Shown: positions 12,383 to 34,532 of the stretch, one piece after another
Position numbering within the stretch: position 1 is the first letter of the stretch
Layout of the letters: each line of letters starts with the position of its first letter
From: Dunaliella salina
Taxonomy: Eukaryota; Chlorophyta; Chlorophyceae; Chlamydomonadales; Dunaliellaceae
Reading direction: 5' to 3'
Length of the DNA: 34,532 nt
Assembly: GCA_002284615.2 (NCBI GenBank)
Contig: MU069573.1
Span: forward strand, 431,260-465,791
Made by a program: the position numbers and the translations under genes
The notes under the pieces: model-generated
Seen by the model: only the letters and a program-made list of their open reading frames with translations
Told to the model about the DNA's origin: nothing
Database searches by the model: none

Positions 12383-12599
12383 TCATAAGGAAAGTGTGTA
12401 TCATTCAAGGGTTCACACAAGTGTGCAACAGCAGTTGATAGAAAAGCTTTGCCCATACATAGTCGGCGTGCAGCACATACAACTTTCAAGAGGATTTTAT
12501 CTGTCCAGGTGCAACGTGGTGTAATCAGGTGCAATCTGTTGCAATACATGGACCAGGCACAGGATGTTGCTGTGTTCTCTACATCTGCAGGCCTCGGAA

Positions 12600-12995
12600 A
12601 ATGGGCCCATCTTTCACACATCGATGGCAGAGCCTTCTCTCTTGGGGAATTGTTGCCAATGGGGGCCAAATGCACGTAGTTGGCAAGCCATCCAGTGCCA
12701 CTATCACATAGGAGCAACTTGTGTTCTTCACCCATGAAGTTGCACGCTTTGAATGCCAAATACTGATCAGGGTGCGCAAGAGTGTGGTTTATAGTGGGGT
12801 CAATGCCAGCAAGGTGACATGGTGACACATCACACATGTATTGACCAGATTGATGGGACATCTCCCACTCAGGTGAATGGCACCATTGGGGTGCAGCCTT
12901 TGCCCTATCTTTTTCTCGGCAGAAATTTGCAACGTGTGTTGTTCACTATGCGGCGCCGCAGAGATAAATTGTCCTGCTTGAAAGTGTCAAAGAGA
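12600..12995 (-). pseudogene. Second, decayed gypsy integrase tail with PHD-finger remnant
   Basis: On the minus strand the fragments follow the same order as the intact tail at 26.4-26.8 kb. They are NTLQI-like HTLQISAEKKI (near 12930), NGAIHLSGR (near 12895), then SPCHLAGIDPTINHTLAHPD (near 12810), equivalent to the APCYIPGVDITINPMLAQPD region. PHD pieces follow in two frames: LLLCDSGTGW, then PPLATIPQ and LCHRCVKDG. Several zinc ligands are lost (C to G in CDSG, H/C spacing broken). A 260-codon ORF overlaps it (12079-12861), but only its N-terminal fifth matches the family. The sequence differs clearly from the 26.6 kb copy, so it is an independent family member on the opposite strand. Confidence 0.65.
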
Positions 12996-13449
12996 AGCAA
13001 AGAAACTTCCTCCCCTATTGGTGGCATAGCGCATTTAGTTTAAACCAGACTAGAAATGAGAAATAAATTCTGGATCCAGCAAGCAGCGGGAATGATGTAC
13101 TTCCTAACGAAATATACCTCATGCTTTCAGATTTAAAGTCTTCAAGCACGCTAAGACGCTAGCTGATTCCTTTTAATTCCCCTTATGTGTAAGATGTATG
13201 TTGCTTTTTAACCGATAGGCAGAGAACTGTCCTTTTGCTTGTATGAATGGGAGTGGGTGGGAGTATGCCTGCGAGGTAGAAACAATTGCGGTTGTTGGGT
13301 TTCTTGTTTTTTGAGGATAAGGATAAGATCGTAGGAGCTGTTGTTATTGTTGTTCAAAGTGTCTGGCGATGTGGTGTTGTACCTTTTTGTTAAAAATCAT
13401 TTGTAGGAAATCCACGGTTTTCAATGATGGCTGGCCTGGATGACAATTA

Positions 13450-16669: not shown

Positions 16670-17330
16670 TCAGGATGCAATAAGCCTTGCTTCCAGGTTC
16701 AGAGCCAACCAAGATGCCCTTTATGCTGACTGGGTCCAGCTTGTGCCGTAGTGCCTTGGAAATGTGCACGTACGCCATGGCTTCAGAGGTCCTCATCACC
16801 TAGATGTTAGGCTTGGTGCCGTAGAATAGCTTCACTGGGGTCTTGGTCTTTCCAGATGCTGGTGATCGGTTGCGAATGCAGCTAGCAGTGGCTGTTGCTT
16901 CTGACCTCATGCTGGCTGGTAGCTTAACGACCTGCAGTTCTCTGACACTCTCCATGAGGGTGCGGTTCAGGCGCTCTGCCTTGCCATTACGTTTTGGCGT
17001 GTAGGGTGCTGTGCTCTCGTGCATGATGCCTCTGGCAGCGTACAACTCCTTGAGCTCTTTGTTCAGGTACTCACTCCCTCAATCAGTATGCACCGCTTGC
17101 AGCTTGTGTCCACTGTAGTTCTCGAGCAGGTTGACGATCTCCTTCGCTGAAGGTGCAACTTCCGCTTTGCTTGCTACACGTACAACAGCGGGGAGCTTGG
17201 AGTAGTCATCCAGAAACGTTGCCACATGCTTGCTGCCTCTGAGGGATGCCTCCTGCATGGGTCCACACACGTCTATGTTTATGAGCTCCAGAGGTCGAGC
17301 TTTCTCGGACTGTGAGCTTGGGAAGGCCTG
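16670..17330 (-). pseudogene. Ty1/copia integrase core
   Basis: The frame opens with KARPLELINIDVCGPM (near 17290), holding the first catalytic aspartate, then HVATFLDDYSKL. VHTD (near 17085) holds the second, followed by an in-frame TGA at 17079-17081 and GSEYLNKEL. TAPYTPKRNGKAERLNRTLM (near 16970) carries the catalytic glutamate. The C-terminal side follows with a TAG near 16800: AYVHISKALRHKLDPVSIKG and ILVGSEPGSKAY. The zinc-binding HHCC pre-integrase segment is missing: protease sequence runs almost directly into the core near 17330, implying an internal deletion. In the family this enzyme inserts the cDNA into the genome. Confidence 0.85.
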
Positions 17331-20278: not shown

Positions 20279-20690
20279 TAGTTAATACTATTATTCTATA
20301 TTTATATCTAGCCTGTGCGCCATCGGGGGCCCATACCCCTCATGACGGCCTGTGTCACGCAACTGCAGCACGCGCCATGATGGCTTTACCTTGCGATAAG
20401 GATGGCCCCTCGCCCCCCCCACCCCATCAAAAAAAGAAGAGCATCCACACTCTCAAGCATCTGGTGGCTTTTTGTGGCTTGCCAGAAACACATCCCAGCG
20501 TTTTCTTGTCCAACAGCTCTCCTGGCAATCCGCTTGGTCCTCAGCCACCCGGATCCACTGCATAAGACCCATCCTTAGACTCCTCCAGCTCTGACGAGTT
20601 CACTTTACATCCTCAGCCTGCCAATACCATCATTAGCACACCATCTTTCTTAAATTCTCGGCAGCGCCAAGACATTGGCTCACATCCACC

Positions 20691-21957
20691 ATGCGCCAGA
20701 ACCTACCAACTTTCGCTGGACTTCCTGGTTTTCTCCTCCAACGATTTCTGTATGACATCGAGTCCTGGTTCACGAATGGGCTCGCCATTCACCCGGACGC
20801 CATCACAGTGCACAACCTTTCGACCGCATCCACCTGGCATTCTCTTTGAAAGTCAAGCACAGCTGTGGTGGGAGCAGAACAGTGGCCGGCTCAAACGTAA
20901 CCACCCTGACCCCAATGGTGAAAGCCTCTTGGACAAATTCCTTAAGGCTCTGGCAGCAGAGTTTGAACACCTCCAGGAACAATCACTGGACATCCTGCTC
21001 GACACCATCTACAAATCTGCAAAACAGGACCTGGAGGATCACACCATCAATTTCCTGCGGGCATATAGACGGAACACGTTGTTAGAATCTCAGGGCTGCG
21101 CCACCTTCATCAAAAGCCGCCAAGCTGATTCTTCTCTGCAAAAGACTTCGGAACAGACCTGTCAGGAGCATCTCTACTACCGGACTTGCACTTTGGACGA
21201 TCTGGCCAACCATTTCAGCCGCCGAGGCAAGCTCAAGCGTCTCAGGGGCAGCCATGGTCACAGTTATAAGGTCGTTAACACTGGCACCGGCCCTCCTCCA
21301 AGGCCCAAGCCTGCGCCTTCTGAAGCAGATTCACCTTGCTTCATCCACGGCGCTGCACACACCATGCAAACCTGCAACCTCCTCGAGCAGATCAAGAAGC
21401 AAGAGAATTCACGCCTAAGCTCCCTTACGCCACGTAGGGCCCATGCCACAACCTCTGCAGCTGCAACCCCTGGACCTAACCCTTACGTACAACATATCCT
21501 TGCAGAGCTGCAACAAACACGACAGCAGCTAACCCAGCTCCATGTAGCCCAAGCTCCTCGCCAGTCATGGAAACCTCCTCATCCTCCGCCATCCTCTTTA
21601 CCTGTAACTTCCAACTAAGCCGGCAATTTCCCGTATTGTACCACTTGCAACAAGCACCACTTGGGGCTATGCCCAGTTCCTCCCTCATGGCCCCCCAAAG
21701 CGCAGTTCTCCAACCCCACACCTGCTCCTCTCAACACTGCTGCGAGGCCATCCACTCCCTTCAACTCCACTCTCAGCCAAGATGCACCGCCATTCCAACC
21801 CACATGTGCCACACCGCTAGCACCCAATGCCTTCGCCACCATCACTAATCCACTCACGCTTCACTGCATAGCAAACAAGGAGGACCTGCAATCAGACTTT
21901 CCTGTCTCAGCACATCTCCCAGATCATCCAGCTGACGATATCCTCATCAATCTTTAG
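20691..21957 (+). pseudogene. Ty3/gypsy-like gag with two zinc knuckles
   Basis: An ATG in a favourable context (CCACCATG) at 20691 opens a frame reading YDIESWF and HPDAITVHNLSTASTWHSL. This is interrupted by a TGA from a one-base insertion near 20848. The next frame continues QAQLWWEQNSGRLKRN, DKFLKALAAEF and EHLQEQSLDI, typical of gypsy capsid. CFIHGAAHTMQTC (21337-21375) is a knuckle with spacing C-X2-H-X3-H-X4-C. A coiled, glutamine-rich tail precedes an in-frame TAA at 21616-21618. The same frame then carries a second knuckle, CTTCNKHHLGLC (21637-21672), and stays open to a TAG at 21957. The TAA may be a mutation or a read-through site. No protease motif is visible downstream. Confidence 0.75.
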
Positions 21958-22212: not shown

Positions 22213-22923
22213 CCTTGACAGAGTATTCAGCTGCAACGCACCCATGGCAATCAAGCGTGGATCACAACTGAAATGGGCTTCAAGCAATTTCGACCCCACT
22301 AACATGAGAAATCATACTTTGGCGCGGACAGCATTGAATTCCTTGTACACATGATCTTCCACCAGGACCTCAGTCCAGAGCCAAGGTAGCCACCATCAAA
22401 AATCTATGGCAACCCGTGGATCTCAAGGATCGATATTCTGAGACGGGCCAGCTGAGGTACTACCGTTAATTCGTGCCCTATCGCATGCAACAGCCCTCTT
22501 TCCTCAACTCCCACGAGCGCAATTACGACGCTTACAAGGGTAAGCAATAGCCGCCCTTTGGGCCATCTAAACAAACATCTACCTGCTTGGTCGCTTCTCC
22601 TACCTTGTAACAGACCACCACCCAACATATCTCATGAATAACACCTCTCTGGGGGGGCACCACGCTCGATAGGCACTACAGCTGCAGCCAAACATATCCA
22701 TTACCCATCGTCCTGGCAGGAACAATCAGAATGCAGAAATCGCCTCATGCTTTCCACTCCTTACCACAGCTGGCACAACAGGAGCACGCTTGGACGAGGA
22801 GGAGGATTCAACACTGCCTATGCCACCTTCAGTGGATGAGGAGGAGGACTCACCATCCTCTACACCACCTTTAGTCCAAATGACTGAGCACTCACCTCAC
22901 CCCGCTTCTGCCATCATCCCACC
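22213..22923 (+). pseudogene. Ty3/gypsy-like reverse transcriptase and RNase H remnants
   Basis: QAWITTEMGF (near 22250) matches the RT region before the catalytic box. It is followed almost directly by YFGADSIEFL (near 22315), so the segment with the YVDD box is deleted. KVATIKNLWQPVDLKD and RYYR follow in another frame. A second deletion then joins to RNase H sequence: LNSHERNYDAYKG (22503-22541), a lost base, AIAALWAI, a TAA, and SYLVTDHHPTYLM (near 22610). The chain continues HHAR, a TAG at 22670-22672 where the family has tryptophan, then ALQLQ and THRPGRNNQNAE. An acidic linker (DEEED twice) leads towards the methyltransferase-like region. It is inactive. Confidence 0.8.
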
Positions 22924-22950
22924 GGAAAAAAAACAGCCTTCATAAACCCC

Positions 22951-23956
22951 ATGACTCCACTCGGCACACCTCAGTTCACCAGCATTGACACCACGTCCCT
23001 TCCTTCCATCCCAGGCTTGACAGTACTCAGGAGCCCTGCCTCTTCTGCAACAGCACCAACCCATGGCATCACCCTCTACGAGCCTTTCGGGGGCACATGC
23101 TCCGGTCTGAAAGCTACTCTCCTTGTAGGTGACCCAGATCCTGTGGCCCATGTGTCGCTGTGCATCGCCTCTGCTACTTTCACACTACCTTCCTAGCCCA
23201 ATTTCCCAATCGGTCCTCCCAAGACACGTTCATAACCCTTCCCCACGACGTGAATGACTTGCTGGCCATGATCTCTTACATTTATACCATAGTGTCACAA
23301 ATCCCCAACTCTTGGTGCCTGGCTAGGAATGCAAGGACCTGTCCCCAGCTGGTTCCAGCACAGGCCTCCATGGCACCAGAACGTCCACGTTTTACTTTCT
23401 CCTGCAACTTGTGGCAACATAACAGACACTCCATCCCAGCCATCCCTTTGCTTACATCTTTGAGAGCGCAGCAGCACATCACCCCAACCCTGCCATGCTC
23501 AGCCACATTATAACTATTTGCCGGGCAATTGGGCAACCACTCACCTCTGATGCTGCTACATGCGGCGCTGCTGCCCAGCGACTTCGCCACTGTTGGACAA
23601 GCCTGCAGCCATCCATTCAGCTACAGCAGCTTATGAATCAGCTTGCCCCCACTCCCACTGCCCAGCGTTCGGCCTCCGCCCTTGACTTGTAAGTGTGCCG
23701 CTATGTCCCGACACCCTTCACCCCAGCCATCTTCACCGGCAAGCCTATCCAAGTTCTTCCCACCCTGGTTTCTTACCCATATTCCTACAACTTCCGTGAA
23801 TTTAAACCTTCCATCTACTCAGCAGACAACACGCTCACCCAGCCAAAACCAAACGAGCGTGAGCGACTGCTTAGTTTCCACCTGGGTGCGCACCCATTCT
23901 CTCCAAGACCCAAGCGAGACAGCCGTGCCTTCCGACATGATGACCACCCTGGATGA
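22951..23956 (+). pseudogene. Cytosine-5 DNA methyltransferase-like domain in the gypsy polyprotein
   Basis: Three frames together give the landmark order of a C5 methyltransferase. Motif I-like GITLYEPFGGTCSGL (23065-23109) is the SAM-binding glycine loop. DPVA, then HRLCYF after a one-base shift, matches the motif II neighbourhood. ECKDLSPAG (23327-23353) followed by GLHG is motif IV-like with the nucleophile cysteine, in E-C instead of the usual P-C. AYIFES (near 23460) sits at motif VI (ENV). AAAQRLRHCWTSL (to 23605) is motif VIII-like (Q-x-R-x-R). A C-terminal VLPTLVSYP and NERERL follow. Stops at 23324 (TAG), 23420 (TAA) and 23690 (TAA) inactivate it. Active relatives transfer methyl groups to cytosine in DNA. 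It lies between RNase H and integrase. Confidence 0.6.
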
Positions 23957-24828
23957 AACAGCGCACACTAATGATGAGGATGCTGAGTTTGCTTTCCATG
24001 TAACCCCACACTTCTCCGCTGGCAACGGCATTACCACCACCAGACTGCCCGCTGACAGGCCCTACAGGCAGCTTGGATTGGATGCCATTAATGAGGAGGT
24101 TGAATACCAAGCCTGCCTTGTTGAGCAGCCCGCTACAAATGAAGATCCTGACCTCCAAGCAGATGAAGCCATCCAGCGCCTAGACCGCACAGCGGACATC
24201 TTTGCTGATACGTTCTCCATGCACTATCTGCGCCATGAAAAGCTGCCCAAAGGCCTAGGCAAGCAAGAGAAGGACAGGATCCTACGGCGTGCAAAGGCCG
24301 GGGGCTATGGCCAGATTTACTACATTACTTTGTACGAGATCACGAAGCAAAACCCACTACCTGATTAGCGTCCTGCCATCGTCATGAGTTGTCACGAAAA
24401 GTTCTGCTATTTTTGCGCCAAGCTCAACTTCTTAATGTTGGTTCAAGACTTCTGGTGGCATGGAATGGGGAACTAAGTACGCCAAGTGCTTCGCTCCTGC
24501 CAGGTGGGCAACCGTGCAAACGTGTCCTTCACGGCCAAGACCCCCCAGCTGCAACCGCTCCCAGTGGATGGACTGTTTTTTTGGTGGAACATTGATCTGG
24601 CTGGGCCAATGTACCCTCAGAGCCAGAATTTCTACATCTTCGTGGCAAAAGAGCAAACGTCCAAGTTCCTACTTACTGTCTTCATTCCTGACGAGAGCGC
24701 TTGCACCGTCACCCAAGCTTGCGTTGAACACATCATCTCCATTTTTAGCAGCAATGCTAAAGTGCCAGGCTGTTCCACAGGCTTCTGTTTGTGGTCAGCA
24801 GCTGCATGAAATGTGCAGGCTTAAGTTC
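23870..24828 (+). pseudogene. Ty3/gypsy-like integrase, zinc-binding and first catalytic part
   Basis: The linker LGLDAINEEVEYQ and DRILRRAKAGGYGQIYYI is followed by a TAG at 24366-24368. The same frame resumes as an H2C2-type zinc region: CHEKFCYF (second histidine replaced by tyrosine), DFWWHGM, a TAA, then RSCQVGNRAN (second cysteine replaced by glycine). The core begins LPVDGLFFWWNIDLAGPM, with the first catalytic aspartate, and continues YIFVAKEQTSKFL and FVEHI-like CVEHIIS. LHEMC near 24815 is the last recognisable point. About 1.2 kb of LTR-like sequence is then inserted, and the integrase resumes at 26031 in the same frame. The second catalytic aspartate region is not recognisable. 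Confidence 0.75.
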
Positions 24829-26034
24829 AGCCCAGCAGCCAGAAGTCGCCATGCGCAACTGTTGGGCATGGCTTTCCTTGGTTGGAAGGCTCATTTGGAC
24901 AGTGTGGACTCTGCTTGTTGTTGAAGGTCTGGAACTCCAGTCTTTCAGATACTTTCCTGCTCTCTGTTGCTGAACCTGTCCTCTTTCTCTGCTTGTCGTG
25001 CTTCTCTCAGTCTGAACTTTGTGGTAGGGGGGTCATACGGTCTGCGCATCTATGTGGCCCCTTTTGTCATGCGTGAGAGCATCCGCGTGCGCTTCGTGTA
25101 GCTGGAGTATGAGTGATTGGGATTTAGCTCCTGTACCATAGGCATCTTCTGCAGCTCCTGCTGCAAACTTAGAGAGACTCCTAGCTTGTGTGCATGTGAA
25201 CCTGGTGTACCATGTCTCCTTTTGGTGACTCCATGGAGTCACTGGCTGAACAGTCCAGGAAAACTGTATCTGTGTATCTTTATGCCTTGTGCCGCAGGGG
25301 GGCAAGTTATCCAAGTAGACTTCAAGCCTTCAGATGCTTATGCAAGTGTGTGCATGCCCATGCACCAAACCTTTGTTAGTAGAGACCCAGCTGTGCAGTC
25401 CTCTGTTCTGCTTTGCAAGCTCCTGTGAGAGCAACTCAGTGTCCTTGTGTTCCTCTCTGCTCCTTCTGTGCCTTAGCAACTCTGTCATCAGTGTCTTGTG
25501 TAGCTGGAGGACTCGTCAGAGTCCGACTTCCGTCATCAATAAACTTGAGGCCTTCTGAGGCTGCTGCTGTGTGCAGTAAGACTTGAAGTATTATTTCCTT
25601 TTATCTCTTGATTTTCCTGTGGCTTCGGCTGAGCAATTAGTTTGTGTGGTCAGGGTTGTTTGTTACCCTGGTCTCTCTCTCTTTGAATCAATTCGTCGTC
25701 CCCGAGTGTAACAACCACAAGCCATCATCAGACTCAGAGCCCGGCGTATATTCAGGCTGCGTCCGCTAAATTCAAGCGCCAGCATTCAATTGCACCAGGT
25801 GCTCTGCATCACAGCCTCGAATCTCACGGAATCTCTTAGGAATCTTGCTAGCCACACATCCATTCCACCAAGCCTCAGGCCCCGCAGCACTCATCGCAGC
25901 GCGGGCCGAGGCGCAGAGGAGCAGCCTTAGCAGAAGGGGCAGCAACTCATAACCCCTGTGCTCCTCAGTACCAATCTCTACCCTGTCTAGTTGGCGCAAT
26001 GAATTGAACCAGCGAAGTCAACACACGCGACACC
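24829..26034 (+). mobile_element. LTR-like repeat, copy B, inserted in the integrase
   Basis: From 25057 to 26034 this is the inverted partner of 10628-11698. It starts near TGTCATGCGTGAGAGC (25065), has AATAAA near 25538, and a plausible LTR end CGAGTGTAACA near 25710. A PBS-like CTCAGAGCCCGG follows, then a leader ending CGCGACACC. The 24829-25056 part is not in copy A and may be the LTR 5' portion: TGTTGGGCATGG near 24867 would pair with a GTAACA end. Integrase codons resume immediately (HHRLSSPN from 26031). A second LTR is not seen, so the insert is either truncated or not a simple solo LTR. CAACTG occurs on both sides (about 24862 and 26051), but a target-site duplication is unproven. 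Confidence 0.6.
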
Positions 26035-26564
26035 ATCGCCTATCTTCCCCCAACTGCTCCCATTCTGACGGCCTTGCTGTGAGAGCTGTCTGGACCATCA
26101 AGAAAGAACTGCGCAAACACCTGGTCACCAACTCACATCAAAGCTTGGACAAAAAGCTACCCTGGATTATGCTGGCGTACAAGTGCAGTGTGAGGGAGGC
26201 CGCCAAGCTCACGCCCTACGAGGTAGTGTTCGCGCGCAAGCTCGAAATCCCATCAGCCGCTGCTGCAGCGCTTGCCATCCCAGTCAAGCTGGACAGCGTT
26301 GAAGACCTATGGCAGCTGTGCTGCACCTGAGCACAAGCGGCCAAGAGATCCAGCATCATCATTGCACAGAACATCCACATCGTTCAACACCATGACGACC
26401 TGCAATACGCCAGGCTACGAGGAGGTGGCTATACTCCCCGGATGCTGCAGTTTAAGAGGCGATCTGGTGTACCTAAAGTTTCGCAACCGGGACCATTAAG
26501 CTACAAATGCAGGTCCAACTTCGCATCTACAAGGTCCTTCTCCCCACCAGCAGTAAACTGTAAC
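26031..26564 (+). pseudogene. Ty3/gypsy-like integrase, C-terminal part
   Basis: The frame resumes HHRLSSPN and SDGLAVRAVWTIKKELRKH. Where gypsy integrases have the catalytic glutamate (DGLAER), this copy has valine. LPWIMLAYKCSV and LTPYEVVFARKLEIPS are the typical end of the catalytic core. After a stop at 26328-26330 and a shift come IVQHHDDLQYARLRGGGY, GDLVYLKF and LQMQVQLRIYKVL, the C-terminal DNA-binding (GPY/F-like) region. It meets an in-frame TAA near 26564 and then continues as the PHD-containing tail. The same tail organisation is seen, more decayed, on the minus strand at 12600-12995. Confidence 0.75.
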
Positions 26565-26839
26565 GGCTCGACGGCCGCATTATAACCACCAACGTACGCA
26601 ACTGTGCCCCATGCTACATCCCAGGCGTCGACATCACCATCAACCCCATGCTTGCTCAACCAGACGCCAACCTGACTTGTGAGATCTGCCACTTGCCGAA
26701 CAAGGAGAACCAAACGCTGCTGTGCGACGCGTGCAGCGTGGGCTTCCACATGGACTGTTTGACGCCTCCTCTCGGCTGTATTCCGAAGGGTGCCTGGGTT
26801 TGCCCAATCTGCAATGAAGACGGCGTGACCCAGGATTAA
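26565..26839 (+). pseudogene. PHD finger at the integrase C-terminus, all zinc ligands intact
   Basis: After VRNCAPCYIPGVDITINP and LAQPDANL comes a complete C4HC3 PHD finger (26678-26812): CEIC, CDAC, H-x2-C in FHMDCL, and CPIC. The conserved tryptophan lies two residues before the last pair (WVCPIC) and leucine-rich LTPPL after the histidine. PHD fingers bind the histone H3 tail, often according to lysine-4 methylation. At an integrase C-terminus it occupies the place of the chromodomain in chromoviruses, so chromatin-guided integration is the obvious inference. The frame ends VTQD at a TAA at 26837-26839. This domain is undamaged while the upstream enzymes are broken. Confidence 0.85.
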
Positions 26840-33483: not shown

Positions 33484-34432
33484 GAGATCTATGCCAGATC
33501 AAAGTTTGGCAGGGGAAGATTTGGGAACTTCGACCCCAAAATTTGTTCAATTTAAGCATAAATATGATTAAAGACACTTAAGAATCCACACCCCTAGTGG
33601 AACCTCCGGCCCCTGTGCGTGTGTGCAACATAGGCAGCAAACATTAGATTTGCAACACAAACGTGCCTTCTAAATGGATTAACGCGTTTCAAATGTTAAT
33701 ATCACCACACGCATTCGTTTTTACGAGGTATGAACGCCTCTCAGCCTTTTTTGCAGAGCACTGTTCCTGAAACATCCTAACGAGCACGAAACTCACGTCT
33801 GCTCGTATGGATTAGAACGGTGCCCAGGGCGCCCGACTCCAGTTCCGCTTACTCCTCTCAAAACACACTCCTGGAGACCGCAGATCGCCTGCAGATCAAT
33901 CTGGGAAGAATGAATGCTCGTGAAATGAAAAAAAAATGAAACCTCTGCCCTCTGCCAAATTTTTATGGCCCAGCTCGCAAAACCACGTTTCCGCTGCAGA
34001 CGTAGATCAGTACGCTAAGACTTACATACTACTACCACCTCTCATGTCCGAGAAAAAAGCAATTGTACCACCCGATTTTTATGGGCTGAGGTGGCTACGA
34101 TGGTTTCTGACAACGGATTCCGGATACCGAATAATTTGGAAAATCTCATGGGAAGTGCTCTATGAGTGAAAAGAGGTTATGGTGCTCAGAGGTCCATTGT
34201 TAGGTAAACCTCCCAGACGTTCTTGCCCACCCTAATCCAGCTAGACCACCTATTGAATCCATTTCTTTAACAATGGTGTCTGCTATATCACTGCTACACA
34301 CCCAAGAGTAAATTGGAACAGATGAGGTAGGTTGAAAATCCCCATTTTTCACCATGGTTTTGCCCCTTTTTCCCCTTTTGGAGCATCCTGGCCTAGGTAA
34401 CGGATTTAATAGTGCCCTTCTTGGTTGTGTCT

Positions 34433-34532
<100 letters not shown>

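Follow-up and report, generated by a model that had tools for sequence, protein, structure and literature searches.

The closest described system is KnitGypsy-Dnmt3 of the charophyte Klebsormidium nitens, an LTR retrotransposon of the Gypsy class with a Dnmt3-type cytosine-5 methyltransferase (C5-MTase) in its Pol, reported together with DNA methyltransferases (DNMTs) in retrotransposons of Symbiodinium (de Mendoza et al. 2018, PMC5890265). KnitGypsy-Dnmt3 is described there as intronless and under purifying selection (Ka/Ks < 0.2), with its key functional residues conserved. The Symbiodinium elements SymbioDIRS-Dnmt3 and SymbioLINE-Dnmt likewise bear a C5-MTase, in the DIRS case in one Pol frame with the reverse transcriptase (RT), but are of the DIRS and LINE classes and have a tyrosine recombinase or an endonuclease and no DDE integrase (PMC5890265). 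A 2025 survey reports retrotransposon-embedded DNMT3 in streptophytes and dinoflagellates, and a separate ChloroDNMT group; its name for the LTR elements is Copia, in contrast to the Gypsy of the 2018 paper (PMC12344493; PMC5890265). According to a review, one comparison found DNMT3/DRM homologues only in Cyanidioschyzon and Klebsormidium, and the same review also names a diatom DNMT3 (PMC9861306). The C5-MTases described from chlorophytes, ChloroDNMT (PMC12344493) and the Chlorophyta DNMT6-like enzymes (PMC10538959), are host genes, often with a PWWP domain. The element studied here is, like KnitGypsy-Dnmt3, a Gypsy element with the enzyme in Pol; compared by description, it differs in its probable host, in a Glu–Cys (E–C) pair in motif IV and in a PHD finger after the integrase, the term "PHD" being absent from the main text of PMC5890265. 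A retrotransposon-borne DNMT is thus known already, while the E–C motif, the PHD companion and the probable chlorophyte host group look new, if unproven as such. The host group is judged new from a limited literature, in which the reported lineages are streptophytes (including the charophyte) and dinoflagellates, and on the condition that the host is called correctly.

We analyzed a stretch of 34,532 nucleotides (hereafter the window), which belongs to contig C138 of a 285-Mb genome made up of 1403 contigs. The host is probably a green alga, perhaps Dunaliella, which is a chlorophyte. An LHCII exon of this genome, located with a plant LHCII sequence, scored 159.6 bits over 71 residues against PDB chain 7pi0_G, the best of the LHCII chains, followed by 7pi0_Y from that entry (126.8 bits) and 9is4_G (125.9 bits); by summed score, some multi-domain LHCI chains of 9vfj stood higher. 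For a second exon, chains of the 7pi0 group were once more at the top of the LHCII chains. Entry 7PI0 is a photosystem II structure of Dunaliella. A first-pass annotation had proposed from the letters alone that sequences like motifs I, IV, VI and VIII of a C5-MTase occur here in the right order in a Ty3/Gypsy element, following RNase H and preceding the integrase, in a copy broken by stops and frameshifts, and had pointed to precedents in a charophyte and in dinoflagellates, which are indeed those reported in PMC5890265. A three-frame reading found all four motifs in order, with motif I at ~23068–23109 in frame +1 and the E–C pair at 23327–23332; the sequence F-E-S and the block of motif VIII are read in frame +2. 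The damage was also as claimed, amounting to two frame changes and three in-frame stops (23324, 23420 and 23690). When compared with the window by tblastn, the MTase domain of a copy on contig C1276 matched collinearly in three frames (22984–23130, 23139–23261 and 23258–23878, E = 2.9e-60), and the Pol frame of the same copy from RT to linker was also collinear (E = 1.1e-89). The parts of the element are the following.

20566–21850, plus strand: putative Gag region, degraded; open stretch 20566–21618 and on, name inferred from position
22306–22478, plus strand: end of RT and connection, fragments in two frames (tblastn, C1276 Pol frame)
22503–22885, plus strand: Ty3/Gypsy RNase H in fragments, with the tail that follows it (tblastn, C727 RT–RNase H frame)
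22942–23881, plus strand: degraded C5-MTase domain (C1276 tblastn and motif reading; other copies reach PF00145), consisting of a motif I part (22942–23130), a middle part (23139–23261) and a motifs IV–IX part (23258–23881)
23895–24287, plus strand: linker between MTase and integrase, open in one frame (C1276 Pol residues 835–974, E = 2.9e-10; ORF 23637–24368)
24300–24764, plus strand: integrase, zinc-binding domain plus the beginning of the core (C1276 integrase residues 14–170, E = 1.5e-35)
25959–26468, plus strand: remaining integrase core and C-terminal part (C1276 integrase residues 167–335, E = 1.7e-69)
26678–26812, plus strand: PHD finger, end of Pol (PF00628, E = 1.9e-10, 41 bits against a cut-off of 24)

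Within the putative Gag region, 21622–21843 matched a frame that precedes Pol in the C1276 copy (E = 1.5e-8), and comparison with Pfam gave subthreshold matches only. The RT end was recovered with the C1276 Pol frame as 22306–22380 and 22350–22478 (tblastn, E = 1.6e-5 and 2.1e-4), the C727 frame giving a similar result. For RNase H, a region that corresponds to PF17917/PF17919 in other copies, the C727 frame matched 22503–22544 and 22574–22885 (E = 1.7e-26) and the C1276 frame matched in pieces within 22503–22873. RNase H upstream and the two integrase pieces downstream place the MTase domain where it had been proposed to lie. Residues 745 and 835 of the C1276 copy abut at 23878/23895, so that ~89 residues, among them the motif X stretch, are missing from the window copy. 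The zinc-domain frame of the copy on C110 matched 24243–24611 (tblastn, E = 2.1e-34), the window integrase stayed below the PF00665 cut-off (0.0054), and the integrase is split by ~1.2 kb of other sequence (24765–25958). Farther downstream, 26501–26830 matched the C1276 copy (tblastn), with the PHD finger inside. A search for LTRs flanking the window copy, meant also for dating, found none, and no LTR pair was recognized at two other loci, L076 (9.9 kb, one gap) and L077 (9.7 kb, near-tandem repeats only). The closest DNA matches of the window copy lie on C277 and C754 and are broken. The window copy, of a Ty3/Gypsy LTR retrotransposon, is dead and can no longer do the job proposed below for its family.

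The window holds further repeat-like sequence. Parts of the insert that splits the integrase, such as a frame with LGFSSCTIG, resemble frames of L039 and L076 by eye, and the insert looks like another repeat. A second Gypsy-like remnant lies on the minus strand at 12549–13028. It matched the region of the integrase C-terminus and PHD in the copies on C110 (E = 6e-8) and C1276 (E = 7e-8), and its longest frame gave no match in Pfam. A degraded element at ~15.1–18.0 kb, also on the minus strand, has frames that look Ty1/Copia-like by eye and a long poly-Q at ~16.3–16.5 kb, and 16920–17318 weakly matched the C1276 integrase (E = 9e-8). The two ends of the window (34426–34532 and 1–56) consist of simple repeats, and one end matches the other.

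The search with the C5-MTase profile PF00145 that the first-pass annotation had suggested gave a divided answer, and the proposal survived this check once other copies were included. The MTase pieces of the window itself did not match the profile and, as they are too broken for it, better-preserved copies were sought. A protein search of the same genome with one window frame gave at least 31 matches including the window, 26 of the 31 lacking an internal stop; the other 30 were 38–73% identical, and at least 22 further places, some of them partial, were spread over 21 contigs. We scanned 13 copies with PF00145, and 11 of them matched at E <= 0.1 (best 1.7e-6). The copy on C373, which has RNase H and MTase in one open frame of 714 residues, scored 28.1 bits for the domain alone and 26.3 bits for the full frame, above the cut-off of 22; the copies on C265, C110, C321 and C1016 scored 22.0, 19.7, 18.6 and 13.3 bits, respectively, and those on C1276 and C21 gave no match. 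The DNA methyltransferase families of PHROG were matched by C373 (7.1e-10) and C1276 (1.4e-4), and the NCBIfam model TIGR00675 by two of three copies, far below its cut-off. The architecture can be read without interruption elsewhere: in the C110 copy an open frame runs from RNase H across the MTase to the integrase zinc domain, and in the C1276 copy one runs from RT across the MTase, followed by integrase and PHD in a next frame that overlaps it. The domain order of the latter (RVT_1, RT_RNaseH, then H2C2 and rve) is collinear with the fragments in the window. Several other copies also show motif VI as ENV, the R-x-R of motif VIII, the F-x-G of motif I and motif X.

Comparison with structures gave matches that are weak but of one kind. 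The whole C373 frame, searched at E <= 0.1, matched only RT/RNase H chains in the PDB. With the domain, DNMT3 chains made up 18 of 20 matches for alignment A1 (E <= 1), 17 of 17 for A2, 17 of 18 for A3 and 13 of 14 for the C373 domain (E <= 10), with best E values of 0.06 for A1, which is the best overall, and 0.15 for A2. In these matches, motifs I, IV, VI and VIII of the DNMT3A/DNMT3B catalytic domain are collinear with the domain of the element. One could still read the segment as an ordinary Gypsy linker whose MTase likeness arose by chance in C-rich, biased sequence: the strand is C-rich, the window pieces miss PF00145 and the PDB matches are weak. This account has to face copies above the PF00145 cut-off, a PHROG match at 7.1e-10, PDB matches that fall almost exclusively on DNMT3 catalytic domains and have their motifs collinear, and sister elements that lack the segment (see below). 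We rejected chance likeness on the PF00145 and PHROG matches of other copies together with the C1276 matches to the window, and regard it as refuted. The stretch 22942–23881 is confirmed as a decayed C5-MTase domain, lying in a Ty3/Gypsy element after RNase H and before the integrase.

Beyond this genome, a tblastn search of phages with the C373 domain gave no match. Two peptide patterns from alignment A3, which see close relatives only, picked out 9 stretches in viral contigs and 24 in genome contigs from prokaryotic and viral collections, none of which was confirmed. Within the genome, L016 and L030 (C3, ~699127–700429) are two adjoining MTase segments that are identical over the 121 codons compared, representing a local duplication or an assembly error.

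In C5-MTases, the catalytic cysteine of motif IV is usually preceded by proline (P–C). The first-pass annotation had pointed out that the window has E–C instead, and the pair proved to be shared. We scanned motif IV at 25 loci, of which 18 gave 19 readable places, five had no readable motif IV and two repeated places already counted. The residue before the cysteine was glutamate in 18 of the 19 places, aspartate in one and proline in none, and E–C is thus a trait of the family. The cysteine itself was present in all 19, as the scan pattern demanded (C-x-D-L-S, with which losses of the cysteine would go unseen), and it is invariant in alignment A1. The F-E-S sequence, which had been listed as the motif VI of the enzyme, fared differently: where readable, the relatives have ENV or ENI, and F-E-S therefore reflects the decay of the window copy. 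The cysteine, the glutamate of motif VI, the R-x-R of motif VIII and the glycines of motifs I and X are kept in many copies. Glutamate in the place of proline may alter or abolish the chemistry of the enzyme. At locus L026 (C948) and at 23324 in the window, a stop stands directly before the E–C pair, the two copies belonging to different subfamilies.

The same genome contains a sister Gypsy lineage with the same order of RNase H and integrase (C633, C583, C133, C776 and others). A search with RNase H gave 150 scored matches, and we compared the DNA around the best 30 of them, 18 in the MTase clade and 12 in the sister clade. The two clades split at 100/100 in a tree of RNase H, which has no outgroup and does not include the window copy, and the RNase H of the 12 sister loci showed 54–59% identity. 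Among these best 30 matches, the MTase was found downstream of RNase H in 15 of the 18 MTase-clade loci, with C61 having the first part only; of the remaining three, C1087 reaches the contig end and C603 and C1187 lose similarity right after RNase H. None of the 12 sister loci had the MTase within 1.5 kb after RNase H, and 11 had an integrase within that distance, the twelfth (C163) running into other sequence and a gap. No integrase match was found within 1.5 kb of the 18 MTase-clade loci, as expected because the MTase domain sits in between. The distance from the end of RNase H to the integrase zinc domain was 679 residues in C110, in comparison with 211 in C633 and 231 in C583, the last figure resting on a zinc match that is truncated where the query stops.

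The flanks of the linker are similar by eye in the two lineages, and one insertion of the MTase domain is the simplest reading. The domain would then have been gained by this lineage. The converse, a domain ancestral to both lineages and lost by the sisters, is allowed by a tree whose polarity is open to either direction for want of an outgroup. It sits badly with the sisters, which keep a linker of 211–231 residues with no MTase trace seen there, and to our knowledge Gypsy elements are generally without an MTase domain; we consider ancestral presence improbable.

The PHD finger has a different distribution from the MTase. PF00628 was matched in other copies of the MTase lineage (C110 2.4e-12, C1276 1.2e-11, C321 2.6e-11), and a PHD-like finger was found at the same place by pattern and by eye in all three sisters examined (C583, C133 and C776, one with an internal stop). 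The finger is therefore probably older than the MTase, and we rejected the idea that it came as part of the MTase capture. The Chlamydomonas element REM1 has a PHD finger in its integrase.

To assess selection on the domain, we computed Ka/Ks by the Nei–Gojobori method for 11 of the 13 segments in alignment A2 (55 pairs); trimming to open stretches may bias the ratios low, and two of the segments adjoin on C3. Between subfamilies Ks exceeded 1 and was saturated (infinite in five pairs), and weight was therefore put on the 17 pairs within subfamilies. Ka/Ks was 0.05–0.25 in 15 of these and 0.60 in one with a Ks of 0.04, and it was undefined in one identical pair. The values for RNase H (nine loci, 36 pairs) were 0.05–0.24 in most pairs, with one of 0.65 and two saturated. 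This suggests that the MTase domain has been under purifying selection and was kept much like RNase H. The Ks of 0.04–0.09 between some copies suggests that some subfamilies were active fairly recently.

As to the source of the domain, the PDB matches suggest, rather than show, a DNMT3 origin; DNMT3 has P–C in motif IV, whereas the domain here has E–C. The chlorophyte ChloroDNMT and DNMT6-like genes are a possible host source. An independent capture would not be needed if the MTase shared ancestry with the charophyte KnitGypsy-Dnmt3 element. The two elements are of the same class and have the enzyme in Pol (PMC5890265), and the DNMT3-like PDB matches would agree with common descent; still, we think this origin rather unlikely.

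Our main reading is that of a Ty3/Gypsy lineage whose Pol holds a C5-MTase, placed after RNase H and ahead of the integrase zinc domain, as well as a PHD finger downstream of the integrase, and which would methylate its own cDNA; we give this explanation as a whole a probability of roughly 85%. The MTase would be made as part of Pol and travel in the particle with the reverse transcriptase and the integrase. It could methylate cytosines of the new cDNA of the element, before or at integration, and the methylated copy would then resemble host DNA or enter a tolerated chromatin state. The PHD finger may read histone tails and so help to pick the insertion site. Methylation of the own cDNA seems the most likely activity by analogy with SymbioDIRS-Dnmt3, the domain of which methylates CG in yeast (PMC5890265). 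The domain of KnitGypsy-Dnmt3 gave no methylation in yeast, in a test that the authors call inconclusive (PMC5890265). Taken alone, DNA as the substrate of the enzyme, a point argued from this analogy, falls slightly short of an even chance in our judgment, with the doubt coming from the E–C pair and from base composition, which gives no support.

We computed the observed-to-expected ratio of CpG (CpG o/e) for the element (0.54), the rest of the window (0.46–0.51), the MTase domains of eight copies (0.34–0.61) and six host LHC loci (0.39; L070–L075). Over RNase H, the ratio was 0.44–0.64 in the 18 loci of the MTase clade and 0.28–0.58 in the 12 sister loci, which are if anything lower. CpG depletion as a trace of self-methylation was rejected, as no signal was specific to the element. 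Throughout the window and the LHC loci, a CpG o/e of ~0.4–0.55 comes with an excess of TpG/CpA, which would fit widespread CpG methylation of this genome.

The same composition, with no sign of DNA self-methylation, is what one would expect of a C5-MTase relative that leaves DNA alone and methylates RNA, or that only binds SAM or nucleic acid and thereby aids particle assembly or reverse transcription. A motif IV with E–C in 18 places, D–C in one and P–C in none, held under purifying selection, points the same way, and RNA methylation has also been proposed for SymbioLINE-Dnmt (PMC5890265). A structural role alone, however, needs neither the cysteine nor the motif VI glutamate, the R-x-R or the glycines of motifs I and X, all of which are kept in many copies, and we judge a protein that does not methylate DNA to be unlikely, more so than descent from the KnitGypsy-Dnmt3 element. 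Returning to the C5-MTase carried in Pol, a more specific version of the main reading, which is conceivable but doubtful, is that a DNMT3-like enzyme was captured in a chlorophyte and its E–C pair kept by selection, with a Pol that, through its PHD finger, would read histone marks and write methylation on DNA or on RNA:DNA hybrids at insertion.

A charophyte and dinoflagellates have been reported to harbor retrotransposons with a DNA methyltransferase of their own (PMC5890265; PMC12344493), and the family described here is a probable chlorophyte case. As MTase-free sisters occur in the same genome, both states of one Pol architecture are found together, so that copies that carry the domain can be compared directly with copies that lack it. 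In its nearly fixed E–C pair, the family offers a natural experiment on the need for the motif IV proline.
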